Shown one piece after another: positions 9,179 through 46,069 of a stretch of DNA of 64,000 nt. The stretch's first letter is position 1, and each line of letters begins with the position of its first letter. The notes beneath the pieces were generated by a model, which was not told the DNA's origin, ran no database searches, and was given only the letters and a program-made list of their open reading frames with translations. Origin of the DNA: Pelagomonas calceolata. Its lineage: Eukaryota > Sar > Pelagophyceae > Pelagomonadales > Pelagomonadaceae. Both the position numbers and the translations under genes were made by a program. The stretch covers positions 248,001 through 312,000 of the forward strand of contig CAKKNE010000001.1 of assembly GCA_918797485.1 (NCBI GenBank). The letters are read 5' to 3'.

Positions 9179-10649
9179 ATGCTGCTGCTCGGCCTCACAG
9201 CTGTCCATGCAGAGCTCTTCACCTCACCTAAAGTAGTGGCACAGTTCGGCAGGCAGAACCCGGCGCGCTACTTCGGCATCGTCGACTACAATTCCTCCTT
9301 ACTAGTCTATGCGAGGACGGGCCACTATCCGCACGCGGATCCGAATCCACGCACGCTACTGTGGACAGGATGCGACCACAACCTGAACTGCATCTCTCGT
9401 TCAAATACACAATTGGCGCCCTGGCCTTCCTCATTAGCGCACAACGCGGCCATCTACGTGGCAAATGACCAATGGTATGTGATTGGCGGGCTCTGGGGTC
9501 CGGGAACGAGAAAAAGGGGGCTCGAGCGACGGGGACCTTTCTCCAGCATAGACGAGTTGCTCGCGTCGGACGAGGGTCCGGTGTTGGTCCAAGGCGACCA
9601 CGAGGGCTGCGTCGACCGACGCCCGCGGCAACGCGGTTCCTGCGAGTTCGACGGGAAAGTGTCCGTGGTCGACGGGAGGTTGTATGCCCGGGCCAACTTG
9701 GTGAGGAGAAATGCTTCCAACGGCATGTTCGGCGGGCGGCACGTGCAAGTTCTGAAATTTGAACCGGCTTTATCGAATTTTGAATTGATCAGTGTGCGCG
9801 ACTACCGTGGAGTGGGAGCGCCGCCCGTGAGTGGGGACAACGTCTACTTCGCCGTGGTCTTGCGAAACCCCGTCGCGAAGGGCTACATATTGTTGGCGCC
9901 GGTCGTGCGCGAAGAGCCGACGCGGAAAGCGTTTATTGGGATGGCGTTTTCGTGTGACGGCGTGCACTTTTCTGAATTCTTACGAGTGCTAGAATCGACG
10001 CCGGCGTCCTACGGCCGCGGCACGGACCATCCCGTGGACGGGGTGGTCGTGCGGGGCCCAAACGCCTACTTCTACGTCCACCGAGACGTGCCCGGCGTGC
10101 GGGCCGAGGAGATCTATAAGAGCCGGCTCGTGCGGTACACCGTGCCTCTCGCGGAGCTGAAGGCCGTGGCGGAACGCCGCCTGGACTGCGCGCCCGTCCC
10201 GAGCTGTGTGGAAAACAACCAGCACTAAGTCATTGCTCGGCGATGACGCGGCGGTGCTGCCCCCATCGAGCGGTGCGGAACCGGCACCGCCACGCCATCG
10301 AGCAGGCGTCGCGTCGATGGCGTGGAGGACGACGCGAACGCGCCGTAAAATTTTGATTTCCACACAGGTCCCGCGGCCGCCGCTCGACTTCGACGCGTGC
10401 TGGCTCGCATGCTTGTCGAGAGCTCGCGCCCGCGGCGACACGCGGCGCGGCGGCTTCCTGGACTCGTGCTTGGAACCGTGCTACCCGCCGCCCGGGGACG
10501 AGTGCCGGAGCCTGCGCCTCAGGTATGGCATCCGAGCGGGGACGTCGTGGGGCGCGGCCGCCGACTCGGCCGCGGTCCAGGCGCGGTGGGCGGCATTGTC
10601 GTGTGACGAGCTCGTGGGCGACGGGGTGGCGAATAAGTGGCGAGCGTAG
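9179..10649 (+). CDS. Secreted protein of unknown function, possibly beta-propeller-like
   Basis: Exon 1 9179-10195, exon 2 10368-10649; about 433 residues. A short signal peptide (MLLLGLTAVHA) starts the protein. The body is rich in beta-strand patterns (NDQWYVIGGLWG, GKVSVVDGRLYARAN, GVVVRGPNAYFYVHRD), reminiscent of glycoside-hydrolase-43/exo-alpha-sialidase-type propellers, but I do not see catalytic residues that fix a family. Exon 2 adds a Cys-rich tail (ACWLACLSR, CLEPCYPPPGDEC). The single intron is a TIR-bearing introner; splicing from the upstream target duplication keeps phase 0 (DCAP/VPRPPLDFD). Confidence 0.65.
10204..10367 (+). mobile_element. TIR introner (B family), 164 bp, with 8-bp target duplication
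   Basis: Element starts CTGTGTGGAAAACAA and ends TTGATTTCCACACAG, i.e. terminal inverted repeats. Flanks are GTCCCGAG (10196-10203) and GTCCCGCG (10368-10375), an 8-bp duplication with one mismatch. The intron is 10196-10367: the donor GT comes from the upstream duplicate, the acceptor CAG from the element end. The interior matches the copy at 45788-45990. Confidence 0.88.
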
Positions 10650-10700
10650 TGTTATTTTCTTCTACTTAGTTCCTAGTGTTATCTTCTTCTACTTAGTTCC
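10647..10700. repeat. 27-bp tandem duplication between convergent genes
   Basis: Units 10647-10673 and 10674-10700 differ at one base. The stop codon of the plus-strand gene (10647-10649) lies in the first unit; the stop of the minus-strand MYND gene (10691-10689) lies in the second. Confidence 0.85.
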
Positions 10701-11456
10701 CCCCTCAGGCGTTGGTTTCCGTTGCGACCGGGCGCGTTTGCAGGCAGCCTTATGGCTGGACCAGTGATGGCGCTGGCACACTTGGCTGCAGTAAGGGACC
10801 TCACCGCAACCGGCGCACTTCTTCATCGAACGGCGCCAGACCTGTCCGCAGGCGGCGCAGGTACGTAGCTTTCGGCTCGCGCTTACCACCCCATCTAGCA
10901 TGAACGGTTGGTTTTTCAGCAACGGAAACCGCATCAGCATGACGGGAGGCGACGCCTCGTCGGGGAGCATGAAGACATATTCGCCCTCGGATAGTTGCAT
11001 CATGGCTCCGGACTCGCAGGGAAGCAAAACGTGACCACTCAGCGCGTAGACGTTCACGAGCGGCTCGCCTTTTGTTTTTCCCTTCTGCTCCACCTGCGTA
11101 ATTAGGGCAAAGAAGGTGCACGTCGTGTCAAAGTAAGTCGTGACGACCCGTGTGTTGCTCGTTTGCCCGAGGAGCAACTCAGTGGCGCCGGCGACGGCTT
11201 GCGGGTCCACCGGAAAGTTTTTCTGGGCGTGTTGCCGCATCCAGTCGTCGATGGGGCGCCACGCGCGCTGCTCTGTCGTCCTTCTCTTCATTGTGGCGAA
11301 TGTGCAGGCTTCAGCCTGGCCTTTGGGGTCGTGGAGGAGCTTTTTGCCGTCGTGCAGCGAGCCGAGCCCGCCGTACGTGTGCGTAGACCAATCGGTAGTT
11401 TCTCGTTTTGCTGTCGCCTCCGTCGTCTCCTGCGCCTCCTTCGTCTCTTCCGCCAT
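10689..11456 (-). CDS. MYND zinc-finger protein
   Basis: 255 residues from the ATG at 11456; the open frame extends further upstream but without ATG. Residues 1-25 are Glu/Thr-rich. The centre (about 60-190) is an unrecognised alpha/beta region. The C-terminus is a MYND finger: CAACGQ...CAGCGEVPYCSQVCQ followed by HHWSSHKAAC, i.e. the full Cys/His set. MYND fingers bind Pro-rich partner peptides; no SET domain accompanies it, so a methyltransferase role is not supported. Convergent with the secreted-protein gene. Confidence 0.75.
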   Translation of the reverse strand: MAEETKEAQETTEATAKRETTDWSTHTYGGLGSLHDGKKLLHDPKGQAEACTFATMKRRTTEQRAWRPIDDWMRQHAQKNFPVDPQAVAGATELLLGQTSNTRVVTTYFDTTCTFFALITQVEQKGKTKGEPLVNVYALSGHVLLPCESGAMMQLSEGEYVFMLPDEASPPVMLMRFPLLKNQPFMLDGVVSASRKLRTCAACGQVWRRSMKKCAGCGEVPYCSQVCQRHHWSSHKAACKRARSQRKPTPEGGTK

Positions 11457-11648
11457 TGGTAGCGATGCGCAAGCGGGACCGCCGGAGAGCACCGACGATC
11501 CCACAGCCACTGCGAGGTCAGTCGGTGGGCTGCCTGCCTCAAATACCACGCGATCGTATTGGTACACCAATGGGACTTCTAGAGACGCCCGTAGCTTGAC
11601 GGCTGCGGATTTTTTAGGCCCGGGGCAGCCCCCGCAATAAAAGCGCAC

Positions 11649-11670
11649 CTAGCGGCCTGTAACACACTAG
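11649..11670. promoter_or_regulatory. CTAG promoter motif, forward orientation
   Basis: CTAGCGGCCTGTAAC followed by ACACTAG. It lies between divergent genes, 89 bp upstream of ATG 11759 and 193 bp upstream of ATG 11456. Confidence 0.65.
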
Positions 11671-11758
11671 GAATCTAGGCTGCCCGCAAAACGCCGCCAG
11701 CGCTGCCCGCCGGCCTCTGCAGCACACGCAGAAGGCAGCACAAGCTGCCCCACGAACG

Positions 11759-12562
11759 ATGCGCACGCTCTGGCTCTGCCTCCTGCTGCTCTCCGCGAGT
11801 GCCAAGCGCAAGAAACGCAAGACAAGAAAGCAAGCTCGAAGAGATTTGGTCGGCGAGTTCGAGAAGGTGCTGCGAGGCGAGTCCGTCGACTCCCACGTGA
11901 CCTACGAGGACTTTCGGGGCCAGGAGAAGACGATGCCGGTGCGGCAGATGGCCGAGACGCTGGCCGATCAAAATCTCAATCCCCCCTTCGATAAGGATCA
12001 AGATGGTAGATTACGGTCGAAAATTAATGAGGGGAGCGGGAGTATTGATGAATTGGAGGGCGATGTCAAGAGGCACGCGCACCTCGCGCGGGCGGCTCAC
12101 CAAAAGCTGAAAGCTCTCGGGTATAATGTCGGGAGATTGACGGGCGCGAGGAGCTGGGCCCCCGACCGGAACTCGACGGGCGATGGCGAGGGAGTTGAGG
12201 GGAGAGACCCGAACGCCGTTGCGGCTTCTGACGCAAAGAAGCGGGGCCGACTCTGCGAGACGGTGCGGTTGCTGCTGAAAACAAGAGATCTAAAAAATAG
12301 CTCGCTGAAGGGCGCCGTCGCCGTGCGCCTCTCGGAATACTACGGCGTCGCGGTATTGAGAGCGGCCTGGGAGGTCGAGGACGGCCGGCGCGTGAGGGAA
12401 CTGCAAGTCCCGCCGGACGCGAAGAAGCAGCTCCACTACCTCGTGCTGCGGCGGTTCGCGTTTGAATTGGCGGGGCGGTTGCGCTTGGACCGGTGGCCCC
12501 GCTACGTGGTGCTGGCGCTGCCGACGGTCGCGGCGCTGGTCGCGACGCGTAGTAGGTATTAA
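11759..12562 (+). CDS. Secretory-pathway protein with C-terminal membrane anchor, unknown function
   Basis: 267 residues. N-terminal signal peptide (MRTLWLCLLLLSASA), then a basic stretch (KRKKRKTRKQARRD) and a Lys/Glu-rich region with one EF-hand-like loop (DKDQDGRL, about residues 78-85). A Lys-rich helical half follows. A hydrophobic segment (YVVLALPTVAALVAT) sits at the C-terminus just before RSRY. The topology suggests an ER/Golgi or plastid-ER lumenal protein held by a C-terminal helix. No family recognised. Intronless. Confidence 0.6.
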   Translation: MRTLWLCLLLLSASAKRKKRKTRKQARRDLVGEFEKVLRGESVDSHVTYEDFRGQEKTMPVRQMAETLADQNLNPPFDKDQDGRLRSKINEGSGSIDELEGDVKRHAHLARAAHQKLKALGYNVGRLTGARSWAPDRNSTGDGEGVEGRDPNAVAASDAKKRGRLCETVRLLLKTRDLKNSSLKGAVAVRLSEYYGVAVLRAAWEVEDGRRVRELQVPPDAKKQLHYLVLRRFAFELAGRLRLDRWPRYVVLALPTVAALVATRSRY

Positions 12563-12573
12563 GTATGTGTTTG

Positions 12574-14521
12574 TTAGTGGCGCTCGCGCTTGACGGCCGG
12601 CGCGGCGCGCTGGCGCTTCGCCGGCGGCTCCGGGTCCGGCTTGACGTCGACGTCGTCCTCGCTCTCGGAACCGCTCTGGATCTCGATGACGTCGTGGTGC
12701 CGCGCGACCGAGTCGAACGCGACGCCTCCGAGATGCGCGATGGCGTAGCCGTTGATCAGGACCCGGCGGCCGTTCCGCGGCTCCACCCTGACCACGCGGA
12801 GCTGCTTCTTCTTCCCGGTGACGCACAGGAGGAAGACGCGCACGCCGAACGCGTTCGCGAACCTGTGTGGAAATCAAATTTCGGGCGCCCCGCGCCATCG
12901 ATGCGATAACCTAACTCACTGGTTGATTTCCACACCGTCGCGAACGCTTGGACGAGCAGCGCCGTCTGCTGCTCGGCGACGTGGGCGCCGCGCCGCGACC
13001 GCGGGCCGCCACCGCCTAAGCGCCACGACGACCGCGGGATCTCCTCCTGCGCGCCGCCCGGCGGCTTCACGACCACCACGCGCGCGTCGCCGCCCTGGAC
13101 CGAGCACTCGACGACGCCCGAGCCGTCTTCCTTGGAGACGTCCACAAGATCACCCGCTTCGAGCGGCGGCGGCCGCGCCGCCGACGCCGCGCCGTCGTCG
13201 TAGCGCTGGCCCGCCGCCGCGTGGCCGTCGTTCGCGCTGCGGCACCGCTCGAAGTGGTCGCGCCACTCGCCCGCGTAGGGCAAAGGCGCGTCCGTCGGCC
13301 GGTAGAGGGCCCCGTACTGCTCCTCGAAGTCCACGGGCGCGCCGCTGCAGTAGTCTTCCTGTGAGAATCGACCAATGAGCCACGTCGCGTCGCTGGCGTG
13401 ATTTCGGCTCTGGTTCCGACCACCACCCTTAGCTCTGTGGCCACGGCGTGCTCCACATATCTGGAGAGCTGGTGCGTGCCGCAGAGCTGGTGGCTCAGCG
13501 CATCGAAAAGCGACCGCGGCTCGCCGACGAGCTTAAATCCTTCTCCCCGCAGCGCCTTGTCGAGCCTTCCGGAGTCGGGGACAGCCTTGGGCGCGCCCGG
13601 CCCGGCGAGCGGCGACAGCTTCGACGAGAACAGATAAGTCGGAGGCTCCGAGATCGCAAAGCCCGCCCGCAGGTGGCGGCGCAGGTCGCGCGACGACTGC
13701 CTTGCGTCCTCGATCAAAGCCGTCTCGCGGTCGAGCCAGGCCTTGGGCGTCGTCTTCGCGATGTGGAGCGCCTCGATGGCCGCGTAGCGAAAGCTGAAAG
13801 TGGCGAAGCAGTCGCGTGACACGCGCGGCGTGCGCATAGCGCCGTACTCGGAAGAGTTCGCCGCCGTCGCGATGGCATCTCCATAAGAAGTCCCCAGCCC
13901 GAAGATGTCCTTCTTCGTCGCACCCGTGGCCTGGGCGTCCTCGCCGCGCGCGCTGCCCGGGGCGGCAGCCATGAGCTTCTTGTCGCCGAGGTCCTCGATG
14001 ACCCGCGCGACCACATCGATGCGCCCGGCCTGGGACGCGGCGCCGAAGTCGCGCGTCGCGGGGCCGCCCTCTTCCACTTGTCGCAGCTGGGCGAAGCGCA
14101 TCGGCCGCACGGCGTTCGTGGCGATCGACGCCGTCGTCGCGCCGACGTAATCGCCCTCGATGCGAGCCGTCCACATGTAGCGCTCGTCGGGGCCGTAGGG
14201 GCCCGTCTGTTCGTCGCGCACCGCGTGCTGGCCAAAGAGCGACAGTGAATCGATCTTCCGGCCGTCGACGAACGTGTCCACACACAAATGGTGGCGCGTG
14301 GCGTTGACCACGACGACCTCGAAGCGCGTGCCGGCCGTCGTCGCGACGAGGCACTTGCGTTGCGCGCAGGCCGCCGCCGCCTCGGGGCTGACTTGGCCGT
14401 TCGTCGCCGCGGTACGCAGGAAGGCCCAGTCCCGCGGCGTGGTGTCGGGGTCCGACAGCTCCGGGACCGCTCGACCGTCGACGAGGACGTGGGCGCTGAG
14501 GCCTCGCGCGTCGACGGGCAT
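12574..14521 (-). CDS. OTU-like (ovarian tumour) domain protein, apparent catalytic Cys replaced by Ser
   Basis: ATG at 14521 (MPVDARGLSAHVLV...); frame upstream of it lacks ATG. The N-terminal ~330 residues are unrecognised, with a beta-rich start. Then comes an OTU-type core: GEPRSLFDALSHQLCGTHQL aligns with the family's DG(N)CLFRALSxQL box, with Ser where the nucleophile Cys is expected. Near the C-terminus GGVAFDSVARHHDVIEI resembles the catalytic His strand (HYxxV/I). A basic/acidic tail (KPDPEPPAKRQR) follows and may be an NLS. Introns: one at ~13434-13368 (TTCTCACAG acceptor) and a TIR introner at 12863-12945 whose removal restores VQAFANAFGVRVF. Whether it is a pseudo-deubiquitinase is inference. 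Confidence 0.6.
12863..12937 (-). mobile_element. Short TIR introner (B family), 75 bp, exact 8-bp target duplication
   Basis: On the plus strand the element runs CTGTGTGGAAATCAA to TTGATTTCCACACCG. It is flanked by identical TCGCGAAC octamers at 12855-12862 and 12938-12945. In the gene's sense (minus) the duplicate reads GTTCGCGA, supplying the donor GT; the acceptor is the element's CACACAG. The intron is thus 12945-12863 (83 bp) and excision restores the pre-insertion codons. Confidence 0.9.
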
Positions 14522-14959
14522 TTTCCTGAATTTTATGCTGAATGTAGCTAAAGAGCCTTCTAGCAAATATATTGCTTCCGAGACGAGATCGTAGCCTGCA
14601 GTCGGGGCCCGGAGATGGCTGAAAAAAGCTGGTAGGAGGTTTCACTACTGTGCAGCCACCCAACGATTGAAAGCGCTGGTTCTGGGGCACGAGTGCGATA
14701 TTTGCGAAGGTGGGCTATCCACGGAATGGACAGAGCCCACCGCTTTGCCCTGTTTTTGGCTTTCCGGGACCTAGGCGCTAGCGGCATGTAAGACACTAGC
14801 AATTCCGAGCTTCACTCACTTGACGCCCGGAGGACGGCCCAGACAGACGCTAGACGTGTGCAGGGGCGTTTCATATAGCGGCACACAGCCCCCGCCCACG
14901 CCGCCGACGCCTGCGCGCCATCGCTGCGCCGGCACACCAAACGCAGAGAGGCCGCAGCG
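14522..14959. promoter_or_regulatory. Divergent intergenic region with a CTAG motif (14778-14799)
   Basis: 438 bp between the OTU-like and Trm61 starts. A canonical motif, CTAGCGGCATGTAAG then ACACTAG, lies 161 bp from the Trm61 ATG and 257 bp from the OTU ATG. No other feature seen. Confidence 0.6.
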
Positions 14960-16165
14960 ATGGACCGCGGCGGCCGCTCTGGGGGCGAGCGCCAGGACCC
15001 TTTACCCGCCGCCTTCTTGGAAGTGTACACGAAGCACGGTCCCAAGCCCTACGCCGAGGGCGAAAAAGTACCGGTATATAACAAAGGGATATTTCGCAAC
15101 CCCCAGGACGGCCCCATGAAAAGTGGAGATTTAGTCATATTATACTTCGAGGACGAGTCCATGGACTATCTTTATTTGCGGCCCGAGAATTTCGCGAAAC
15201 ACAGCGGCAAATTTGGGGATTTTGATCATCGGGATTTCGTCGGAAAGGAATTTGGAGAGAAGATCTTCTCGAGGACGAATAAGGTGGGACGGAGGGGCAA
15301 GCAGTCGTCGGAAAAGGGCTGGCTGTACGCCCTGTGCCCGACGCCCGAGCTCTGGACCGAAGTCTTACCTCATAGAACGCAGATCGTCCAGACGAGCGAC
15401 CAGGCCGTCATCTGCTTCCAGCTGTCGTTGTGGGACGGGAAAATAGTGATAGAAGCAGGTACGGGCTCCGGAGCCATGACGACGGCGATGGCGAGGTGTG
15501 TCATGCCGCGCGGGTCGGTGCGGACGTTCGAATTTAATGAAGTGCGAGCGCAGAAAGCTCGGGACGAGTTCGAGATGAACGGCTTGACGGAGCCGCTCGT
15601 CGTGCCGCGCTATAGGGATGTTTGTGGGGAAGGCTTCGGGATGAGCAGGGAGGCGGACGCGATTTTTCTGGATTTGCCGGAGCCGTGGCTCGCGGTCGAC
15701 CATGCGATCGAGGCCTGTAAACACGGTGCTCGGTTCTGCTCCTACAGTCCTTGTATTGAACAAGTGCAAAAAACAGTTGATAAGTTACGAGAACGCCACT
15801 GCGACCACATCAAGACGATCGAGGTCCGCGAGCGCGAGTTCGAGGTCGTTAAAAATGAGATGGCCGAGGTCGTGGCGCCGCCGCAGCGCGTCGTCGAGGG
15901 CGCCAAGGCGCGTAAGGTCGACGACGACCAAGGCATGTGGCCGCTGCCGCCCTACATGGCCGTGCCTTACCCCGAGCAGCGGGGCCACACGGCCTACCTG
16001 ACCTTCTGCACCCTGCCCTATTCGTGGGGCTACGACGAGCGGGCGCCGTATTTGGACGGGCGCCCGCTGCCGGACCTTTCCGAGTACCCCGAGGGCATGT
16101 ACCCTACGGAAGGGGACGACGAGGAGATGGCGCCGGTCGGGCCGCCGGTCCCGCCGCCGCCGTAA
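14960..16165 (+). CDS. TRM61: tRNA (adenine-58-N1)-methyltransferase catalytic subunit
   Basis: 401 residues, a normal family length. An N-terminal beta-rich domain (GDLVILYFEDESMDYLYL) precedes a class I SAM-dependent Rossmann domain: motif I EAGTGSGAMTTAMAR near residues 166-180, the acidic strand RTFEFNEVRAQKARDEF after it, and the catalytic-region IFLDLPEPW near 235-243. The C-terminal SYSPCIEQVQKTVDKLRE matches Trm61/GCD14. The enzyme makes m1A58 in the tRNA T-loop together with Trm6, in the nucleus. The C-terminus is Pro/Asp-rich. No introns. Confidence 0.92.
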   Translation: MDRGGRSGGERQDPLPAAFLEVYTKHGPKPYAEGEKVPVYNKGIFRNPQDGPMKSGDLVILYFEDESMDYLYLRPENFAKHSGKFGDFDHRDFVGKEFGEKIFSRTNKVGRRGKQSSEKGWLYALCPTPELWTEVLPHRTQIVQTSDQAVICFQLSLWDGKIVIEAGTGSGAMTTAMARCVMPRGSVRTFEFNEVRAQKARDEFEMNGLTEPLVVPRYRDVCGEGFGMSREADAIFLDLPEPWLAVDHAIEACKHGARFCSYSPCIEQVQKTVDKLRERHCDHIKTIEVREREFEVVKNEMAEVVAPPQRVVEGAKARKVDDDQGMWPLPPYMAVPYPEQRGHTAYLTFCTLPYSWGYDERAPYLDGRPLPDLSEYPEGMYPTEGDDEEMAPVGPPVPPPP

Positions 16166-16229
16166 CTGAATGTGTTAGCTTACTTCCTTGGGAGGGCCTC
16201 CCCGGGTTCGTACGCCGCCGCCGCGGCGC

Positions 16230-20380
<4,151 letters not shown>

Positions 20381-20863
20381 TTCTTTAGCGCTGTCCTATC
20401 TCCGGCGCTCTACGCTGGCTGCTCCACTTTCAGCACACAGGCTCCATTTGACCTCACTGGCTGCCCTTTGTTTGCAAGGCGTGGGGGCTGCTCAACAACA
20501 ACACTGTAGAATTGAACGCCCGTTCAGTGGTTGTAATGCACGCTGTAGAATTGAATCCTGGACTTGTACTCGCAGCGCACAGCAGCGCGTTTGGGAGCGG
20601 CCCACACAGACACTTTACAAAAAACCGCAGCGCTGCGAGATAGCGCTGCGCCTTTGAGCGTACGCTTCCCCAAGCGCCAAACTGGACCTCGTCGGCACCG
20701 GAGCCTTCTCCTCAGATTTCGATAAAACCCGTGCGCGCTCTCCAAACGTGATCGCGCCGTGCGCTCCTTTGCCGCCGTGCACAGGTGGTGCAGTTACACG
20801 CAGGGCTGTCGCAAAGCAGCTGCCAATTCATATCTACCACTCCTCGCTGCAACAAACGCAGCA
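20381..20863. promoter_or_regulatory. Divergent intergenic region with small direct repeat
   Basis: 483 bp between head-to-head starts. Contains CTGTAGAATTGAA twice (about 20503 and 20541) around the palindrome GAACGCCCGTTC. No CTAG motif copy seen here, and no gene. Confidence 0.4.
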
Positions 20864-22835: not shown

Positions 22836-23092
22836 AAATGATCGTGAGGCACTTGGCGACGCAGTCCAGGGCCGCCTCGCTTCCTAAAATCCAGTTGTAG
22901 TCGTGGACGACCATCGCTTTTTTGGCGCTTTTGGCGCTTTGGCGCGGGCAGGGCTGTGCTCAGATATCAGATATAGTTGCCCGCGCGGCCGCTCGATGGC
23001 GTCTGGCGGCTGGCGACAGTCTAGTGTGCGCCCGGCTGCCGCGAAACTGCAACTTTTGCCGGCTTTTGAGCTAAACCACGTCGCGCGCGGAG

Positions 23093-33267: not shown

Positions 33268-33777
33268 GCTGTAATCGATGTGTTCTAGCTAAATCTGAGC
33301 GCTGTAACTTGGGCAGCGCTGCCGTCAGGCTCGGAAATGAGTAATGCGCTAGCGATATTACCACGGCACGCCCGGAAACACTCGAAAAACCTGGAAATTG
33401 GCTAGTCAGAGAAACCCGTTTTGTTGATGCTTTTTCGAGAAGTCCAAACACCACATGTGCCGCGCACAGAGGTACGGCGATACGGCAGGCCTTCGATCGC
33501 CCCGAGAGTTCCGCGACCCGCGCCGCCTAAAATCGGTTGCAAGCCAACGTGCGCGAAGGCTGTGCGCGTACGACGGAGCAGGCTCCGGGGTTTCCCCATT
33601 TAAGCTGCCACCACACGCACGGCTCCACGTCTACGACTCGGGGCAGCCCAACGACGCGCGCCGGGCAGCAAAGTCCCCACCCTAGCGTGAGCCCCACGCC
33701 GTCGACGCGACGCCCACCGCCGGCGGGACACGCGACGCCACGCCCCAACGACGCGGCACCACGGCCGTGACGCCACG
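33268..33777. other. Divergent intergenic region, 510 bp
   Basis: Between the ALDH and coiled-coil genes. CTAG occurs at 33349 and 33401, too far apart for the recurrent motif. No gene or RNA recognised. Confidence 0.35.
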
Positions 33778-35574: not shown

Positions 35575-35651
35575 TTTGGGCTCAGGCTAGTTACGTCGCA
35601 GGGTCCCCCGTACCCCTCCCGCTCCCCCCGGGCCCACCCGTCCGATTTGAT

Positions 35652-35671
35652 CTAGCGGCGTAAGATACTAG
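35652..35671. promoter_or_regulatory. CTAG promoter motif, forward orientation
   Basis: CTAGCGGCGTAAGATACTAG, 201 bp upstream of ATG 35872. Confidence 0.6.
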
Positions 35672-35871
35672 CAAGCAGCTCTGGCAAACTTGACATTTGC
35701 TGTCAGTGCATCTGTTCGAGCAACTCCCCGCTGAACAGAAGACCGAGAAGGCATCATTTGATTGCTTCCGTCGATCCCTGTAGCCACTGCAAGCGCCGGG
35801 GCACGAGACTACTGAATCTGAGCCTGCCAGTGCTCATCTGCTGTCAGGTTGCTGCTTGCCCCAAATTCACC

Positions 35872-36384
35872 ATGCGGTGCTTGTTAGGACTCCTCGTAGC
35901 CAGCGCGACGGCGCTCCGACCTGTGGCGCGCCGCGCGGCCCTCAAAACTCTGAGCACGCTCGTCGCGCTGCCCACCGCCGCGACCGCCATTTCAGGAGGC
36001 GGCAAGGACTACGCCGAAGCAACCATAAAAAACCAGAACTTCGACGGCCAGAAGCTCGACAACAAGGACTTTAGCGGCGCGGACGCGGTAGACACGAGCT
36101 TCAAGAAGGCGAGCCTCCGCGGCGCGCGCTTCTTCAAATCCGACTGTGAAAGGGCCGATTTTACAGGAGCCGACCTCACGGGCGCGTCCTTCGAGAGCGC
36201 CAACTTAAAAGATGCGGTCCTCGCCGGCGCGAAAGCCGAGGGCACGGCGTTCTCGCAGACGATCTTGGATGCGAAGTCCTTCGAGGGCGCGGACTTCACG
36301 GAGGCGGTGGTCCAGCCCTACGTGCAGAAGGAGCTCTGCAAGCGGGTTTCTGGGAATACGGCGGAGAGCCTCTTCTGCCCCTGA
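35872..36384 (+). CDS. Thylakoid-lumen pentapeptide-repeat protein
   Basis: 170 residues from the ATG at 35872. Bipartite leader: signal peptide MRCLLGLLVASATALRP with an ASAFAP-like cleavage context, then a twin-Arg hydrophobic segment (ARRAALKTLSTLVALPTAATA) ending AxA, as for Tat-exported lumenal proteins. The mature part has A(D/N)LxX pentapeptides (FSGADAVDTSFKKASLRGAR; ADFTGADLTGASFESANLKD). The C-terminus has two Cys (ELCKRV...LFCP). Similar to the plant lumenal TL15/TL17 proteins. Role unknown. Confidence 0.78.
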   Translation: MRCLLGLLVASATALRPVARRAALKTLSTLVALPTAATAISGGGKDYAEATIKNQNFDGQKLDNKDFSGADAVDTSFKKASLRGARFFKSDCERADFTGADLTGASFESANLKDAVLAGAKAEGTAFSQTILDAKSFEGADFTEAVVQPYVQKELCKRVSGNTAESLFCP

Positions 36385-36470
36385 TGAGTAAGAGATACAA
36401 TTCAAGTGTTATGTACACCGTATAGAGAGAGAGATTGGACGCGCAGATGGACGTCCGGTAAAGTACGAAT

Positions 36471-39400
36471 TCAGTCGTGGGGCGGCGCCGGGTTGCCGTT
36501 CCGCGGCGTGTTCGCCGGCGAGCCCCTACATTCCGCTAAAGTAGGAGCCGTCGGCGCTATCACCCTAACTTGCCCGGACGGGCTGATCTCGCGCAGGGGC
36601 GAGCCGCGCTCCGGCGACGACGCCGCCATCGAGGACGGAGGCGAGGGCGGCGCGTCGGCGTCGGCACTTTTCATGGCCCGTTCCACTTGATCCCTTTGAC
36701 TTTCCATGGCCCTTAATTCAGCAACCGAAGCCTGGTACAAGCCGTGGCGCTGGCCCAATGAAGCTCTACTGCGAACAGCCTGGGCCTGGAAGTTGATGGC
36801 TTCGTCTAAGACAAGTAGCCCGGCCCGCCTCGCAGATAAGGAGTCGCGCTGCTGGAGCATCTTGCTACCTTGATGGCGCCGGACGCGCGCCAGGCCCGCG
36901 AGCGCGTGCGCCGCTGGTGCTGCGCCGGCGCCTCGTCGAACGTGTAATTCCTTAATGCCAGATCGAAGAACGCCCGCGCCGCGTCGAAGATGGCCATTTC
37001 GACCGTCAACGATCCTAGTGATACGGCCACTTGCGCGACGTCCAAATGCGAACCATTCCCATCTTCCCTGATACGCAGAGCCTCCATCAATTTACCCTCG
37101 GCCTTTTTGTACAATGCAGAACGCTCTAGTATTAACGTAGATCCATATAAGTCGTCGTCCTCCATTGATGAAGTGGAGGCCGAGCCCCACCTGTGTCGAA
37201 CGACAGCGTCACGACGCGGCCGCGGCTCGCTCGCGAGACGCGCAGACGCTCTGATGATCATGAAGACGGCGTCACGGCGGTGTGGCATCGCGTTGACGCC
37301 ATCGACGCGAAGTTGAAGTTCGGAAAAGTTCGGAAACCACGCTGAGTCAGCACCTTCGACCGCTAGCAGGTGGAGGCACCTTCTGATATTTCACGAATTT
37401 CTTCGCCGAGACCTGTTTTTTCAGAGAAGGTTTCCGGAGCACGGTCCGCGCGTCGCCGTGCACGACGTCGCACAACCGCTTGTTCTTCTCGCGGCCCACG
37501 CGCTGCGCGCAGTTCTGGTAGAAGGTCCCGAAGCCGTTCAAAGCACTCGCAGCAAAGGGTAGGTCGTTGCGCTTCTTCGCTATGCGCACGGCGTGCGCAA
37601 AGCAGCCCTCCGTGAGCCGGCAGCGTCGTCTGCTCTCCAAAGCTACTCCGGAACGCATGAGGCACCATCCGAGTTGGTTCAGCGCTCTTGCTAATAAGTC
37701 GAGTTCCTCGTTCGGTAACTCAGTTTCATTTTTAGCTATACAACCAGCACTAAAGTCGGCCTCCGCGAGCTCGTCGGAGTCGACGCCGAGCATCTCTAAT
37801 CCCCTTGTGAGGAGGGGTATCGGGCCTTCTCCTAAAGGCGCTTGCTCTCGGTCCACATCTCTTGGCCTAGGTGCCAATTCAAACCTCGCATAGAGTTCAG
37901 CCAACCCTAGAAAAGCTGACAATCGAGCAGCTTTCGCTAGCGATAATTTCCCGACTTCCTCTTCGACGAAGGACGGCTGCTCCATGCTTACGACCCTTCT
38001 ATAATGCTGTTCCGCTTCTCGGTACAAGCCTAGCGCCGTGGCATCCCTCGCAGCCAACAGACTATATTCTTTCGCCTTGCCGTCTAGAGACCGTGATTTC
38101 GTGCTATGATCAGCCAACAACAGATGCAAGTCCTTCGTCGTGAGTTTCAAGGCAGCGACGACCGTGTCGATGGCTCTCCGTTCGTCCGTATGCGTGATGC
38201 ATTCCCGACCTTCCAAGACACATAGACAGTCCTCGAAGAACTCCGCGATGCGCCGGTGGTACTCGCGCTTCTGCTCGTCGGGCACCACCCCATAAATCAC
38301 CTCGGCGATTTGCTGGTTCCTAAACCGGTACAGGCCCGCCGGCCGCCTGTTTCTCTTGGCTCTTTCTGATGCTCTAAACTTCTCCAGTAAATCTTCATGA
38401 TCTACTGGTTCTGCCGAATCCGATCTTAATCTAGTTTCCGTGCTTCCGACGTCCGAACTATCGCCACCCACGACACTTCCGCGACACGACATGCGGTCGC
38501 CCGCAATGGACCGTAGGTCGTCGCCCGCCACAGATCTAAAGTCATCCCCATAATTCGACGCGCGCCCGCCGCCGTACACCGAACCGCCTAGATCGCCCCG
38601 CTCCTCCGCAATTCGTTGCGACCAAGCTAGGCGCTGTGCCGCTCTAGTGTTTTGCGTATCGGTGCCATGCGAATCCGCCACGATCAACTGAGCTTTCACT
38701 AACTCGTCGATGGCGTCGTCGTTGCCGCTATCCTTCGGGCCCGGAAAGCACGTCCGCAGCGCCTCTTTATGAAACACTGCGCCAAATGCGGAAGCGAGCT
38801 TCGCGAAGGTAGTCGCGTTCAAACTCAAAGCGTCGAGCTTCTGCGTGATGATGCCTTCGAGACCCGACGGCATGATGCTGTTGTCGTCGGGCGAGGGGAT
38901 CGACAACGACTCGAGCGCCAACACGCGCCGCCAGACGCCGTCCGCCTCCTTCATGAGGTACCGGGCGTGGCGCCGCTCCAGCACCCAGGAGACGCAGGCC
39001 GTCGCCGCCACGACGGTAGCACTTCTGGCAGCGTTCGTCAGCATGGCCCGCTCGCCGACGACCGTCCCCTCGCTAATTTCGGCCACTTTCACGCCGGCCA
39101 CGAAGCACTCCATCGTCCCCTCCAGCAGGATGTAGACCGTCGACCCCTGCTCTCCTTCACTGATCACAGTTTCTCCAGGTGCGCTATGTAGTCTACGCAG
39201 TCGATGGCAGACGTACCTGTGTGGAGACGTGTGGACTCTCATGCGGTCTCAATGAAGACGTCGCGGCGGTGCGGCTTCGTGGAGACGCCAGCGCCGCCAC
39301 CAGATCAAGTTCAAGGTCAACTTCAACACCGAGTCAGTACGAGAACTTTTTTTCATCATCTAAATTAATGAAGCACGGCACTTTTCTGAGAGCGCTCCGC

Positions 39401-42400
39401 ACGACCTCGCGCGTCTCGGGCGAGGCCATACCTCTGACAGCATCTCTATCTTCATTATCGTCGGGCAGCACGTCGTCGACCTGGCCGTCCTCGAGCTTGC
39501 GCACGTGGTTCTCGATGGCGTCGCCTGCGCGGCCAGCGACCGGTGAGTCCTGCGGTGGTTTCTTTTTCGATGTTGAGGCCGTTCGGACAGGTGGACTTCG
39601 TGAGCCTCCACGCCATCGAGCAGACGCAGGGCGCCTGAAGTTTGATTTCCACACAGGTCGTCACATAACGCCAGTACTAAGACTGGTAGGCCGGCACACT
39701 TCCTCCTCACGTTTTCTACGGTGGCCGGCGTCACGGCGTGTAAGGGTACATCTAGTGCGGCGCACAACAGTCTTGACGACGCGAAGGCGTCCAAAGGCTG
39801 TAGCGTGAGGTGGAGGATGCGATCTTCGAAGGACGCTAACCGCTCCCACGCAGCGGGGAGTTCCGCGCCGCCCCTTTTAGCTAGGACGACGACAACTCTC
39901 GCTCGACCACGTCTGGCCGGCGGCTTCGCCGTTAAATCCTCGAGGAGCTCCCACGACGGCGCGTCGAGTCGATGGGCGTTGTCCAAGAGTATCAGCGTTC
40001 TTCTAGGTAGGAAGCCCTTGCCCTGACTTGAGGTGAGGGCCGCAAAGACCGCGCCCAGAAATTCGCGCTTGAAGACCGGGCTTCCAGTCAACCTGCGCGG
40101 AGCATCGCGGTCTCGCGACGCGGTCCGATGTGGCATCGCGTCGACGGCGTCCTGATGACCACGTAGACCCTCGTGGGATCGCGTCGACGGCGTCGCGGCG
40201 GCGCTGTCTCGTGAAGACGCCATCGACGCGACCGCGCCGCGACGGCCCCGACGCGGTCCGAATGGCCCCAAACTCGAAAAAGAAACCACCCACGACATGG
40301 TACGAGTCGCATCGAATGAAGGCACCTTCATAAAACGCGGAGAGCGCACTCCTCGTCGTCTTCATCAAAACACGACAGGTGACCGCCGAACTTGACGCGC
40401 TGACTCCGCGTCATCTTGCCATGAACAAATTTAGCTCGTTCCCCGCCCTCGTACTCTTCTTCCTCTTCTATGTCGAGGGCCTTGCCCACTTTCGAGGCCA
40501 GTGCCGACAGGTGGAGCAACTCGTGGGCCGAATCGTCGAGGGTGAGCGGCGACTCCCGCCCCAGAGCCTTGGGCTCGGGCTCGCTCATCCTGACGGTGAG
40601 TAGATTCCTGATGATCGACAGCCAGACGGCGAAGGGCCGGCCCTGCGAGACCTCGTCGCGTGGGCTTCCACACATTTCCACTCATTTTGATGCACGGACG
40701 GACCTCTCTGAGCAACCGAGATTTGCCTAGTCCCGACTCCCCATCGACACTAATCACGCGACACGCGTCGCCGATGTCAAACTCGTCGCCCTCTGATTCA
40801 TCTGAATACTCGCTGCCCGCCCTACTATCGCCTCGCACCGCATCTAACACTGCGCTGATGTCTCTTAATACATCATCGTTGCCCGTGAAGGCCACGTCTT
40901 CATGAGTGAGAGTATGAGCTCTATCTTTAGCTGCTTCCTCGAGGCTGAACACCTGCGCGGAGCGACGCGGTCCGAACGGCCTCAAATCGATCTCGTCTGA
41001 TGGACACGAGTCGCATGGTATGAAGGCACCGACGTGGGACGCCGAGATCGCGGACCTTGACCATCTCCGAGAAGCCCTTGGCCTTGATGGGTTCGCACGC
41101 GTTGAAGACGCAGAGCCGAGCTTGCGGAGAAACTGAGGTAGCTCGCTCGATGCCGGACTCGACGTAGACGTCCTTATCGCTCTTGGCCGCGGCGCACATG
41201 AGCCGCGCCGCTAAATTCACGGAAGGGCCCATGACGGCGTACTCGCACCTGCGAGGACGACATGTGAAGTGTTGCGGCGCCTCCACTTCACTGATACGAC
41301 TCGTCTCCATGAGACGAGGTCTCTGGTCCGAATTTGGGCCGATTCGAGTCATGACGTCGGAAATAAAACCACCCACGTCATCGTGAGACGGACAGGAGTG
41401 TAGCACGGGACGCTGGTCTGGACCGGTTCGGCGCGCCGACAAGTCCACAAAAGCCGACGCCGACCGTCACGCCGCACTTCGCCCGCAAGTCGTACCGCTT
41501 CAAGGCACTGACAATCGCTAAAGCAACATGCGCCGCCCGGTACTCGTTGTCCTCGAACGAGTGGCCCCGGACGCCGAAGAACGCGATGGCCACGACGCCT
41601 GTGTCCATCGAACGTCATTCCGGCGATGGCGTCGCGACGCGCCTCCATCTCAGGGTGACGTGGTCTCTCGACGCGGTCCGAACGGCCTCAAAATCGTGTG
41701 TGAGACACGAGTCACGGGACGCCGAGACACGGACCCTTGTCGTCGACGATGAACTGCCTTAACATCCCGCGCTTGTCCTCGACGCACAGTTTTATAGTGA
41801 GAAAGCACGTCTGCACTCGATCCAAGTCGCCACTCAGCAACGCGTCCTCGAGGTTCCGAATCTCGACGAAGACCGTACTGACCTTCCTCTGTTCGGCTAA
41901 ATGGTCCTCCGGCGCCTTCTCCACGAGCGACTTCTTCTTGTCCGGCGACAGGCTCCCGGAGTCGCCCAGTTGTTCAAAAATTTCTCGGACTGAAGGGACG
42001 AGGTACGTCTTCAAAATACTCATGTGGGCCTTCTGCGTTAATCTTGAGCTACTGTTCCCTTGGTGCTGCAACTGGATCAAGGACGGTTCCTCCTGGTCTC
42101 GCCGAAAGCCGAAATCAAACGAATTGCGCCGCGGCTGCGCTTGGATGATGCGACACTCTTTGTGTGTTTTCTTCCCTTTGTAGCCCTTGCGCTCGAGCCG
42201 CGGCCACGTTTGTGGAGAGCACGCCGTCATGCCCGCCGACGCGCACGGTTCACTGATCGTAATTTGTTGTAAGGGCTCCCCAGCAATGACCGACTCCCAC
42301 CGGTCCCGGTCCCCGACTCGGTACAAAACGTAGCTACCACACCCGATGGCGCAGTGCATCCGCAGCACGGCGGAAACGCCGTCCTCGTCCACTTTATGGA

Positions 42401-42959
42401 CTCCACCGGTGGATGCTTTAGTGAGCTCGAGCGCGCACTTCGCGGCCAGCGCACAGGCCCCGTCCAAGTCGCCCTCGCCAGCACCGGCGACGGGGAAGAG
42501 CACGAGCATCGCGTCGCCCGCGAATTTTAAGACGTCGCCGCCGTTCCTCGCTATTATACCTACGGCTCGCGTGTAGATCTCGTTGATATGTCTTTTTAAT
42601 GCATCGATCCCGAGTGACGTCGACAAAGCCGTAAACCCACTGATATCGACGAAGAGCAACGCGCCGCGGCCCGGCCTCGCGGACGGCTGATCACACGCGG
42701 CAGGTAAGCGCCTCGTGCTCTTCGACAGGATGTCTCGCACGCTCGGCGACGTCGGCGGGCAGACCTCTAATAATTCCGCATGGACAGACGCCGGCGAGAA
42801 CTTCGCGAAGGAGTTCAGGAGATCGCTTCTATTTCTATTCCGCTCGAGGCGCTTCTTTCGGGTGGTGGCGGACTGGGGTAGACAGCTACAGTACCGCACC
42901 GTCGCCTGGGCGGGCTCGTCGTCATCATCGGCGTGCTTCGGCGACGAGAAGAAGCCCAT
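36471..42959 (-). CDS. Soluble-adenylyl-cyclase-like protein with cyclic-nucleotide-binding domain
   Basis: Eight exons: 42959-41729, 41598-41424, 41248-41056, 40952-40350, 40092-39665, 39524-39341, 39216-37354, 37190-36471. C1 catalytic domain: ALLFVDISGFTALSTSLGID and VLKFAGDAMLVLFPV carry the metal-site Asp residues. C2: AIAFFGVRGHSFED and GLVGAPNRCEYAVMGPSVNL. Next a P-loop NTPase (SVDGESGLGKSRLLREV; Walker B LILLDNAHRLD), as in ADCY10. Then, unlike ADCY10, a cNMP-binding domain (GETVISEGEQGSTVYILLEG; TVVGERAMLTNAARSATV). The C-terminal part is TPR-like helices. All seven introns are introners. One-base frame breaks near 40680 and 36905. Should make cAMP from ATP. Confidence 0.82.
37191..37353 (-). 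mobile_element. Introner-type intron (C family), 163 bp
   Basis: AG|GTGCTGACTCAGC donor, CGACACAG|GTGGGG acceptor, phase 2; joins SGR(R) to WGSASTSS. Close relative of the copy at 4533-4693. Confidence 0.8.
39217..39340 (-). mobile_element. Introner-type intron (C family), 124 bp
   Basis: TC|GTACTGACTCGG donor, CACACAG|GTACGTC acceptor, phase 2; joins KKFS to YVCHRLR at the start of the cNMP-binding domain. GTAC is repeated at both boundaries. Confidence 0.8.
39525..39664 (-). mobile_element. Chimeric introner: B-family left end, A-family right end, 140 bp
   Basis: The donor octamer GTGACGAC (39664-39657) is followed by the B terminus CTGTGTGGAAATCAA. The acceptor side instead has the A core and ends GGCCGCGCAG|GCGACGCC. 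The two octamers agree at 6 of 8. Phase 1; joins ALC to DAIENHV. Confidence 0.8.
40093..40349 (-). mobile_element. Long introner-type intron (A family), 257 bp
   Basis: GA|GTGCGCTC donor, CCGCGCAG|GTTGACTG acceptor; joins DEDDEE to LTGSPVFKRE. Shares its extra inner segment with the VTC1 intron. Confidence 0.78.
40953..41055 (-). mobile_element. Introner-type intron (A family), 103 bp
   Basis: AAG|GTCCGCGATCTC donor, CCGCGCAG|GTGTTC acceptor, phase 0; joins SEMVK to VFSLEE. Confidence 0.8.
41249..41423 (-). mobile_element. Introner-type intron (A family), 175 bp
   Basis: CG|GTCCAGACC donor, CCTCGCAG|GTGCGAG acceptor, phase 2; joins GAPNR to CEYAVMG inside the C2 cyclase domain. Confidence 0.8.
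41599..41728 (-). mobile_element. Introner-type intron (A family), 130 bp
   Basis: T|GTCTCGGCGTCC donor, GGACACAG|GCGTCG acceptor, phase 1; joins DDKGPC to VVAIAFFG. Confidence 0.78.
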
Positions 42960-43467
42960 GGCTGCTCAGCTGTGCTCGGCGCCTCCTCGCGTCGCCTCCT
43001 CGCAGGCGCACGAGTCCCGCAGGCGACGATGTGGGGGTGACACTGAATCAGGCGTGCTGCCTCCCCAAGGACGGTCCCGGGGGCAGCCCGTGGGAATTAC
43101 GGCGGCTGCAAATTGCCCTCTCTCCCAAAATGCGCAAGCGAAAGGTTGCGGGTTGGGGTTGCACTAACCAAAGCTCCCGCCGCCCAGGCCGGCGCCCCGC
43201 GAGGCGTCACCGCGACGGCTCCCGCGCTCCGTCGCAGCCGCGCTCCAACTTCAAAACGAGAGCCCCCGTCACCGATATTTGCCGTGCCCTCTCGTTTTTG
43301 CTCCCAGCGCTAAATTCGCGCAGGTGCGCGGGAGGGCGCGGCCGAGCGCCGGCCACGCGCTTTGCAGTCCGTTGCGCAGCTGCAGCCGCGCGTGGGCAGC
43401 CCGGTGCGGCAGCGGCGCGCCGCCCAGGGGCAGCCTCTCCCTGCATCTGCCGTGATCCCAGGGAAGG
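42960..43467. promoter_or_regulatory. Shared spacer between cyclase and phosphodiesterase genes
   Basis: 508 bp between divergent ATGs. GC-rich; no CTAG motif, gene or RNA recognised. It must contain the 5' regions of both genes. Confidence 0.45.
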
Positions 43468-46069
43468 ATGGGCGCCGGCGGCTCGACGCAGACGCCCAAG
43501 CGGCACGACCGCCGGAGCCGAGGTTCACGCGACTCCGAGGACACGGGCAGCACCGCCTCGGCGTTCGGCCGCGGCGATAGGGAACGCTGCCTCCTCCACG
43601 CGCAAGCCGTAGATAAACACTCTACCTTATTACCGGACCACGCGCGATTGGAGCTCGAAGCGCTCATCTCAACGCTCGAGCACGGCCGCGTCTACGACGA
43701 CGACGACGATTCAAAAGCCAGTTCATTGAACGACCTCCAGCACTTCGCTCCCCACAGTAATGAGAAGGTCCAGACGTGGCTGAGAACTACTTTGTGTACG
43801 GACCAAGAAGGTCGGGATGTGAGAAAGTCCACCGACGTCACGGATGCGCGGACGTCGGTCACTGGACTGCCCTCGACGTTTCTCCTGACGGACGCTCGGA
43901 CGTCTGTATCAACACTGAGAGGTTCCCAGACCGATATCATAGCTGCTGCTGCCGCGGGTGATTTAGAAGCTTTACGTAAAACACCAAAAGAAAGAATTGA
44001 CGACGGCGACTACGACCAGCGAACAGCTCTACACTTGGCGGCGTCGAACGGCCGATTAACCGTAGTAGCGTGTCTCGTCGATGAATTGGGCGCAAATATC
44101 TCCCCAATTGATAGGTGGGGCGGGACGCCCCTCGACGACGCGGTCCGACATGCCCATACGTCTGTCAAAGATTTCCTCGAGGGTAGAGGTGGTTTAAGAG
44201 GTGTCAGTCAACCAGGAGAGTGGGACGAGGGTGCCGATTTGTGCGACGCGGCGAAGAAGGGCGACGTGGCACGGTTGCGGCGCTTGGCGATGCAGAAGCA
44301 GCAGGGCGTGAATCAGGCGGATTATGACGGGCGGTGTGCGCTACACTTGGCTTCTTGTAGTGGTCGGTTAGATGTTGTTAGAGTGCTGGTCGAGGAGCTC
44401 AATGCGGCATTGGACGTATCAGATAGGTGGGGCGGTACTGCGTTAGATGATGCGGAGCGCGAGGGTCATTCTGCTGTGGTAGACTATCTGATGGAAAGGG
44501 GCGCACCTCGAGGGTATTCTCGTCGCTCGAGACACACGCGCTGACGCTCGACGACTTCCCGGACGAATTAGATGATGTGGACGTGCAAGTAAGGGTCACG
44601 GAGGCGTGGCTCGCGGCGCTGAAAGAAAGAACGAGAGAAGACTTCGACGGACGCCGAGGACGATTTCAGGACGCTGCCCGCGTTCAAATCCGTGGACGCG
44701 TGGACGGAGGATGTCCAGTTCGACATTGATTCGTGGGAGTACGACGTGATTAAGCTCCATGAGATGACGAATGGCCATGCTCTCGCAGCTGTAGGGCCCA
44801 TCTTGTTACAACGACATAGTCTGATGGAGCGATGCGCACTCGATCAAAGTGTAGTGCAAAGCTTCTTCGCATCAATTGAAGCGAACTACGGCGAGAACCC
44901 GTACCACAACGCCCAGCACGCGGCGGACGTTTCTGTTGCAGTACATTTATTTCTGTCAGAACACGACCTCATGGAGACGCGCTTCGCCGACCCCGTGGCT
45001 TGTCTCGCGGTCTTAATCGCGGGTGTCGTGCATGATTTTGCCCACCCCGGGACGACCAATCAGCACGAGGTCAAGATTGATAGTAAGAGGCACAAGGCCT
45101 TTGGGGACGCGGGCATCCTGGAAAAGTTCCACGTCCGGGCGGCCTTCGCGTTGATGCGGCGGCCGGAGCTGAACATCTTGGCGCCGCTGGATCACGCGGG
45201 CTACGCGAGAGCGCGAAAGGCCATCGTCAAAGCTGTATTAGCGACGGATCTGGGGCGGCACATGACTTATGTGGAAAGATTGAATGAGATGGCCATGCTC
45301 GAAGGAGCTAGGTCCCACGGCACGCGCGTGAACTCCGGTCAAGAAACGTGGACGTCGCCGTTTCTCGATCCCGAGAAGTGCGGGCGGGACTTGGTGGCCG
45401 CCGTAGCTCTCAAATTTGCTGATTTGGGCCACGCCTGCAAGAAACGCGTGTTGCACGAGGAGTGGACGGCTCGCATCACGAACGAGTTCTGGGCGCTCGG
45501 GGAGCGGGAGCGGAGTTTGGACGTGGCGATCTCGCCCTTGTGTGATCGATCCACAGATATTGATGTGGCCAAGTCGCAGGTGGGCTTCTTCTCGTTCATC
45601 TGCATGCCGTTTTATACCGTGGTGGCCTGTGTGGAAATCAAAATTTTACGCGCGCGTTCCATCGACGCGACGCCTGCTCGATGGCGGCACCCGACACACT
45701 GGTTGATTTCCGCACAGGTGGTCGCCGACCTCGTGGACCCGGACATGCTTCCTCTGTCTAGACTGAAGCAGAACCTGCGGTACTGGCCTGTGTGGAAATC
45801 AACCAGTGCGTCGCGTGCACCCGACAATTCTTCACTAAGTCATTTCTCGGCGACGACGCGGCCGTGCTGGCTCCGTCGGGCGGCGAGGAACTTGCATCGC
45901 TACGCCATCGAGCAGGCGTCGCGTCGATGGCGTGGAGGCCGACTCGGCGATTCAGCACGAACGCGTCGTAAAACTTTGATTTACACACAGGTACTGGCAG
46001 ACGAAGAAACACGCGCGGCGGTGGGAGGCCCAGGCGAAGCTGGCGGGGCCCCTGCGACGGCCCTCGTGA
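43468..46069 (+). CDS. Ankyrin-repeat cyclic-nucleotide phosphodiesterase (PDE class I)
   Basis: Starts MGAGGSTQTPKRHDRRSR, an N-myristoylation-type context. Two ankyrin pairs follow (RTALHLAASNGRLTVVACLV; RCALHLASCSGRLDVVRVLV), with intervening ID(R)WGGT phrases. After frame changes near 44510 and 44650 the PDE domain begins: NPYHNAQHAADVSVAVHLFL, AGVVHDFAHPGTTN, KFADLGHACKK and KSQVGFFSFICMPFY give the HD metal-binding set and the Gln of the nucleotide pocket. Exons 45718-45779 and 45991-46069 finish the domain (NLRYWQTKKHARRW) after two TIR introners. Hydrolyses cAMP and/or cGMP. Could be two genes if the frame changes are real. Confidence 0.8.
45627..45717 (+). mobile_element. TIR introner (B family), 91 bp, 8-bp target duplication
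   Basis: CTGTGTGGAAATCAA ... TTGATTTCCGCACAG. Flanks GTGGTGGC (45619-45626) and GTGGTCGC (45718-45725), one mismatch. Intron 45619-45717, phase 0; restores PFYT/VVADLVDP. Confidence 0.9.
45788..45990 (+). mobile_element. TIR introner (B family), 203 bp, exact 8-bp target duplication
   Basis: CTGTGTGGAAATCAA ... TTTGATTTACACACAG. Flanks are identical GTACTGGC octamers at 45780-45787 and 45991-45998. Intron 45780-45990; exact excision rebuilds NLRYWQTKK. Longest B copy; the interior is shared with 10204-10367. Confidence 0.93.

Follow-up and report, generated by a model that had tools for sequence, protein, structure and literature searches.

A 64-kb stretch of the Pelagomonas calceolata genome, referred to as a whole as the window, contains five segments examined here as introners, a class of introns in which closely similar sequences recur in many unrelated genes. 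Each carries a shared 15-bp terminal inverted repeat (TIR) and is flanked by an 8-bp target-site duplication (TSD). An earlier, sequence-only reading had described them as carrying this terminus, four of them as a full inverted pair, and all five read as described: four copies have both TIRs, and the fifth, in intron 3, has the 5' TIR and a final CAG (39525-39656). Its account of the flanking octamers also holds, with two exact pairs, two with one mismatch and one with two mismatches, in which the downstream copy begins with GC. A search of the window for the 15-mer with at most three mismatches gave ten matches, against 0.69 expected and a maximum of five in 100 shuffles; nine are the reported element ends, and one, at 4860 with three mismatches, is a stray. 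The G+C content of the window is 0.59-0.68, and Rfam and tRNA scans of it were empty. The positions of all features are collected in Table 1.

Table 1. Introner introns of the window, their parts and the host gene of introns 4 and 5 (window positions; splice-site roles are predicted).
Feature	Position	Strand	Description
Intron 1	10196..10367	+	
Intron 1, TSD copy 1	10196-10203		GTCCCGAG; predicted donor
Intron 1, element	10204-10367		164 bp; subfamily A (profile A match); ends CAG
Intron 1, TSD copy 2	10368-10375		GTCCCGCG; one mismatch to GTCCCGAG; would stay in exon
Intron 2	12863..12945	-	
Intron 2, TSD copy 1	12945-12938	-	GTTCGCGA in gene sense
Intron 2, element	12937-12863	-	75 bp; subfamily B
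Intron 2, TSD copy 2	12862-12855	-	Exact duplicate of GTTCGCGA
Intron 3	39525..39664	-	
Intron 3, TSD copy 1	39664-39657	-	GTGACGAC
Intron 3, element	39656-39525	-	132 bp; 5' TIR exact; 3' TIR decayed to ...GCGCAG
Intron 3, TSD copy 2	39524-39517	-	GCGACGCC; two mismatches; GC start
Intron 4	45619..45717	+	
Intron 4, TSD copy 1	45619-45626		GTGGTGGC
Intron 4, element	45627-45717		91 bp; subfamily A; orientation opposite to gene sense
Intron 4, TSD copy 2	45718-45725		GTGGTCGC; one mismatch to GTGGTGGC
Intron 5	45780..45990	+	
Intron 5, TSD copy 1	45780-45787		GTACTGGC
Intron 5, element	45788-45990		203 bp; full-length; subfamily A (profile A match 1-203)
Intron 5, TSD copy 2	45991-45998		Exact duplicate of GTACTGGC
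Class I 3'5'-cyclic nucleotide phosphodiesterase gene	44623..45618	+	Open frame before intron 4
Phosphodiesterase frame, continued	45718-45779, then from 45991	+	Spliced translation

The spliced translation of the phosphodiesterase gene matches PDEase_I in Pfam (1.5e-59) and phosphodiesterases in the PDB (2.2e-49). The junction left by intron 4 corresponds to residue 332 of the spliced protein and is crossed by a gap-free alignment to PDB 6ezu, while the PDB alignment ends just three residues from that of intron 5 (residue 352), which is therefore weakly tested. Both introns are outside the set of copies with confident coding flanks defined below, intron 4 because the next exon is short. Introns 1 and 2 belong to that set, and in the codon-usage test the frame is continuous once either is removed; neither host protein has a Pfam match. 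Removal of intron 3 gives an open reading frame (ORF) of 295 aa that is open across the junction, and its product has only a sub-threshold Pfam match, to AAA_16. The element of intron 3 has lost its 3' TIR and kept the final CAG, and its match to the subfamily-B profile is weak. For the full-length element of intron 5, the predicted fold is a long hairpin with paired ends (z -4.08).

We hold with high confidence that these introners are copies of a non-autonomous TIR transposon resembling miniature inverted-repeat transposable elements (MITEs), and that they would act as introns, with the donor taken from the TSD and the acceptor from the element. TIRs, TSDs, target preference, continuity of frames and domains, and the constraint on the 3' TIR were read from sequence, and from them we infer splicing, insertion polymorphism and a transposase. 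The element, present in at least two subfamilies, would insert by cut-and-paste chemistry and thereby produce the 8-bp target duplication. Targets close to GTCGCGAC, preceded by c and followed by g, would be favoured, such that the duplicated octamer would often begin with GT or GC. The upstream duplicate in gene sense would provide the 5' splice site, and, of the two element ends, the one lying downstream would provide the 3' splice site through its TIR sequence ...TTGATTTCCACACAG, which would allow both orientations to work. Splicing would take out the first TSD copy together with the element and leave the second copy, restoring the ancestral exon. That TTGAT within the TIR serves as a branch point is conjecture.

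Copy number, target duplications and the acceptor end

The assembly comprises 32,445,274 bp in eight contigs and contains 1,562 exact 15-bp termini (790 forward, 772 reverse), a count of ends and not of copies; the same pattern read backwards occurs nowhere in the genome on either strand. The introner ends read CTGTGTGGAAATCAA. Full-length copies of subfamily A measure 203 bp, and sampled copies range from 60 to 206 bp, the shorter ones being probably internal deletions of the 203-bp element. Subfamily B has the same two ends as A and the same internal hairpin (CCACGCCATCGAGCAG...GTCGCGTCGATGGCGTGG), and differs elsewhere. Genome-wide, the left end CTGTGTGGAAATCAACCAGTG is followed by CACACAG 168-188 bases on at 144 places. 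The left end of subfamily B, CTGTGTGGAAATCAACCAGTGAGTTAGGT, was counted 77 times, spread over contigs C1-C6, and an exact search of viral contigs for the 21-bp left end gave nothing. The copies are found in unrelated genes, as expected of introners.

The sample consisted of 106 TIR pairs from 101 loci (318.6 kb, window included), paired with at most three mismatches per end and ends no more than 450 bp apart. A simple motif rule assigns 69 of them to subfamily A, 17 to B and 20 to neither. One copy (L094) was dropped as a duplicate, and 31 single ends remained unpaired; for a few of these a matching octamer was located on search, but all were kept out of the counts. Because copies were drawn near exact termini, or as near-full-length copies with exact ends, decayed copies are under-represented.

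The flanking octamers are identical in 62 of the 106 pairs and agree at seven of eight positions in 23 more, whereas mispaired octamers reach seven or eight matches in 1.0% of comparisons. The 85 pairs with at least seven matches extend to the genome what had been claimed for the window, by the TIR search and octamer tabulation that the sequence-only reading had proposed. Position-wise identity is 0.83-0.93 across the eight bases and 0.17-0.30 at five positions beyond them, and other repeat lengths between 4 and 12 fit 0 to 9 of 106 pairs. TIRs are thus combined with a duplication of fixed length, the arrangement that defines introners derived from DNA transposons.

Gene sense and reading frame were called independently for each flank, using codon usage learned from 80 ORFs in long loci. 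The octamer was not a criterion in calling the sense, although it contributes 8 of the 210 bases that were scored downstream. Flanks were considered confident at 8 log units each and between senses, a cut-off chosen by the analysts, and both flanks passed in 62 of 105 copies, one of the 106 having been dropped for its short flanks. In these 62 copies the TSD starts with GT in 46 cases, GC in 15 and CG in one, while CAG, which is also the TIR end, stands at the acceptor position in all 62. By sequence, one splice site would therefore come from the TSD (GT or GC in 61 of 62) and the other from the element. The earlier statement that the duplications begin with GT describes most copies; about a quarter begin with GC. 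Among the 85 well-duplicated copies, a GT or GC start is present in 83 in the sense best supported by codon usage and in 31 on the other strand, and no copy has it on neither. The phases of insertion in the 62 copies are uneven, with 29 in phase 0, 24 in phase 2 and 9 in phase 1.

Target choice was analysed in the 51 confident copies whose octamers match at seven or more positions. There, the retained octamer and its neighbours approximate the palindrome given above for the target. In 20 of 51 copies (39%) GT or GC also stands at the antisense end, of which splicing requires nothing and for which matched codon positions give 17.5% (p 2e-4); the eighth base of the octamer is C in 27 (53%), compared with 29% (p 3e-4). 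These excesses indicate that the transposase itself probably prefers a palindrome beginning with a donor-like dinucleotide. The preference is real and symmetric, and it could be proposed that it accounts for the GT/GC rule by itself, with no part for splicing or selection. Target preference alone, however, predicts as many antisense-only as sense-only sites, while GT or GC is found in the sense orientation only in 31 copies, in antisense only in 0, in both in 20 and in neither in 0 (sign test, p 9e-10). It also leaves unexplained the one-sided constraint on the 3' TIR and the continuity of reading frames, both described below, and is very unlikely to be a sufficient explanation. The clean result depends on counting GC donors: for GT alone, the numbers are 35 sense-only, 6 antisense-only, 3 both and 7 neither. 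The 31:0 split implies that unspliceable genic insertions are absent from the sample, an absence for which selection would account. As far as the sampled sites go, target preference is not the whole story, and the sign test separates it from selection for splicing.

The two TIRs were compared in the 38 confident copies that had not been fetched through the search requiring CACACAG. Over the outer six bases, the 3' TIR has no mismatch in 228 positions and the 5' TIR has 13 in 228 (p 2e-4); after addition of 27 copies of less certain sense, the counts are 1 and 14 in 390 (p 9e-4). Judged by these mismatches, the outer end of the TIR is held only where it would serve as an acceptor. Positions 7-15 do not differ between the ends (9 versus 14 of 342, p 0.40), and a branch point within the TIR is therefore unsupported by the mismatch test. 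The 13 outer changes of the 5' TIR are confined to its T residues at positions 2, 4 and 6; of the cells there 11% are changed, compared with 3.5% for the A/T positions of the inner part (p 0.007). This pattern could arise through biased conversion, through the elimination of cryptic GT donors or through changes that free the 3' site from pairing in the TIR stem.

Taken one step further, the palindromic target G[TC]CGCG[AG]C, flanked by c and g, and the acceptor module TTGATTTCCACACAG at both ends might make the element a symmetric, pre-adapted intron maker, often spliceable at birth in any orientation, with selection removing the rest; we judge the chances of this extended proposal to be evenly balanced. 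If it were true, target choice would explain why certain transposon families, unlike most, fill genes with introns. The origin of spliceosomal introns is an old question, and here a single chromosome-scale genome, with hundreds of copies of the element and intact target duplications at many of them, allows insertion preference to be separated from the insertions that are tolerated. Both the sense/antisense sign test and the test for one-sided TIR constraint require only one genome and are applicable to any introner family that bears a TSD.

Reading frames and proteins across the junctions

Removal of the first TSD copy and the element leaves the frame continuous in 61 of the 62 confident copies, compared with 11 of 62 when nothing is removed; unspliced, 43 contain an in-frame stop and 17 more a frame shift. 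Retention of 8 or 26 nt keeps the frame in none of the 62. The latter value bears on the idea that the element brings its own 5' splice site and that some inserted sequence is retained in the message. The left end of subfamily B, ...AACCAGTGAGTTAGGT, does include GTGAGT, and passages of PMC9860276 describe such an arrangement for family 4 of the Aureococcus sp. TARA MAG, a related alga with an 8-bp TSD as here, in which both splice sites lie in the element and 12 bp are added to the message. In P. calceolata, use of GTGAGT would leave 26 nt, and the exon appears to be restored instead, which makes an element-borne donor a highly improbable alternative.

Protein domains provide a second view of the junctions. 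In 61 of the 62 copies at least 40 residues are open on each side, and from these, 20 junction peptides were picked by eye and scanned against Pfam. In 12 of the 20, a domain scoring above the cut-off extends 10 residues or more to either side of the junction: ABC transporter, kinesin, SET, RsmB/F, chlorophyll-binding, kinase, APH-type phosphotransferase fold, Pyr_redox_2, FkbM methyltransferase, TPR, acyltransferase and zf-CW. Of the other eight, two have the junction no more than three residues from a domain edge, one has a match below the cut-off, three leave the junction uncovered and two have no match. For six junctions, the alignment to the best PDB sequence was inspected at the level of single residues, and five are gap-free. 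The kinesin and SETD2-like junctions are among them, as is the RsmB/NOL1-like junction, for which the homologue lacks five residues in the preceding dozen. The ABCA-like junction is also gap-free; the octamers of that copy match at only two of eight positions, and it is perhaps old. The sixth junction, that of intron 5 in the window, is too near the end of its alignment.

These data also speak to the idea that the copies are ordinary MITEs in pseudogenes or non-coding DNA, which undergo no splicing. Their TIRs and TSDs are of MITE type, and 43 of 105 copies are without confident coding flanks, but frames continue across 61 of 62 junctions, and SET, kinesin, ABC and phosphodiesterase domains cross them, making this idea exceedingly improbable. 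An RNA-based origin deserves next to no credence. In this model, which passages of PMC9860276 give as a proposal for certain fungal introners, spliced RNA copies enter transcripts or DNA by reverse splicing. The copies are intron-like, lie in genes and form one clear splice unit, but reverse splicing should yield insertions in sense orientation alone and without a TSD, whereas the exact 8-bp TSDs, the 15-bp TIRs and the occurrence of both orientations among the 62 confident copies (41 with the CCAGTG end first, 19 reversed, 2 unclear; p 0.006) fit DNA transposition.

Several observations weigh against a spliced DNA transposon as the source of these introns. Family profile searches, which could miss a diverged enzyme, found no transposase with the introner TIRs, and the autonomous element that the sequence-only reading had proposed to look for did not emerge. 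In 21 of the 106 pairs the octamers match at six or fewer positions, without a convincing duplication, and nine of these are at chance level, with four or fewer matches. This may reflect age or other events; TSD decay showed no significant correlation with the divergence of the element (rho 0.24, p 0.09). The flanks of the 43 copies mentioned above are too weakly coding for the frame test, and the sole failure among the 62, L096, has octamers matching at four of eight positions and a CG start. Frame alone would also allow 12 extra retained nucleotides, with which 61 of 62 copies pass as well; the sole evidence against such retention comes from the five protein alignments, at the junctions that they cover. 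Against these points stand the 61 continuous frames, the 12 spanning domains, the five gap-free junctions and the constraint on the 3' TIR, which together support the proposal, made already by the sequence-only reading, that a DNA transposon supplies the acceptor CAG and its TSD the donor.

Related introners, hAT elements and unusual copies

In Aureococcus anophagefferens, introners are reportedly short non-autonomous DNA transposons with TIRs and an 8-bp TSD (work of Huff, Zilberman and Roy in 2016), and the TSD is said to supply one splice site. The P. calceolata genome was described in a 2022 paper by Guerin et al. Passages of this paper (PMC9481584) give the genome of strain RCC100 as 32.4 Mb in six nuclear contigs plus plastid and mitochondrion, with 63.6% G+C, and compare a 210-bp peak of intron length to introner elements. 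Membership of the Pelagophyceae and this characteristic length of about 210 bp are likenesses to A. anophagefferens (PMC9481584). Because the assembly matches and the length peak is 210 bp, the introner elements of 2022 are very probably the same introns as those described here. The suggestion in the sequence-only reading that the family may be undescribed was consequently only partly right: it had been partly noticed before, but the 2022 passages contain the length peak only. The content added here is the target palindrome and the results on one-sided constraint.

Among other systems, the introners of Symbiodinium microadriaticum share TIRs, a 3' splice site in the element and a 5' splice site derived from the TSD with those of P. 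calceolata, but their TSD is 4 bp instead of 8 bp, according to passages of PMC9860276. The same passages report 548 putative introner families with varied arrangements of TSD, TIR and splice sites. The string 'pelago' does not occur in the main text of PMC9860276, and a literature search of titles and abstract beginnings, mostly within open-access scope, returned no other paper devoted to this introner family.

With regard to the enzyme superfamily, the introners resemble hAT elements in their 8-bp TSD and in a palindromic target whose second base is T and whose seventh is A or G, the hAT target consensus being nTnnnnAn. They differ in their TIR, which begins with CTGTGTGG, presumably not a usual hAT start, whereas the two apparently complete hAT elements found in the genome end in CAGGGCAGCAGAAGG and CTAGGTTGCC. 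Neither a hAT-type TIR start nor, in searches that a diverged enzyme could have escaped, a hAT transposase with the same TIRs was found for the introner. Searches of the genome with PF10551 (MULE) and PF12762 (Merlin-type) gave no match, nor did PF21787, PF21789 (P) and PF18758 (KDZ), which had no match in the control genomes either.

The two hAT elements were considered as autonomous partners and rejected, their TIRs differing from those of the introner and no link being found. The first, at C4:4499549-4503199 (positions 6550-10200 of L010+L011, C4:4493000-4507000), is apparently complete, with perfect 15-bp TIRs CAGGGCAGCAGAAGG, an exact 8-bp TSD TTGCTCGC and a 721-aa frame containing a hAT dimerisation domain; protein search gave one match in the genome. 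The second, hAT-like and also apparently complete, lies at C5:1220521-1223389 (L112+L111) and has the TIR CTAGGTTGCCAYTAAC, the 8-bp TSD ACACTCGG and an 832-aa frame with sub-threshold matches to DUF659 and the hAT dimerisation domain. One end of a partial, diverged relative, one mismatch from the TIR of the second element, lies on C3 near 5.1997 Mb (L113).

The 52 full-length subfamily-A copies have a median pairwise identity of 91.6% and diverge from their consensus by 1.5-8.6% (median 5.4%). No pair exceeds 98.5% identity, and hence no very recent burst is visible in the sample. L026 (6152-6203 and 8411-8491) and L010 (9080-9161, inside the C4 hAT element) contain decayed hairpins that are similar to the inner part of the introner (CGCCATCGA...TCGATGGCG) and have no recognisable TIRs; they are perhaps an older introner generation or a separate palindromic repeat. 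At L082 (C2:3731640-3732053), two full-length introners stand head to tail with a single shared octamer between them, in the order TSD-element-TSD-element-TSD, the octamer being GTCGCGGA in the gene sense best supported by codon usage. The arrangement looks like the outcome of two insertions into one site, and it would leave either an 8-bp exon or one double intron.

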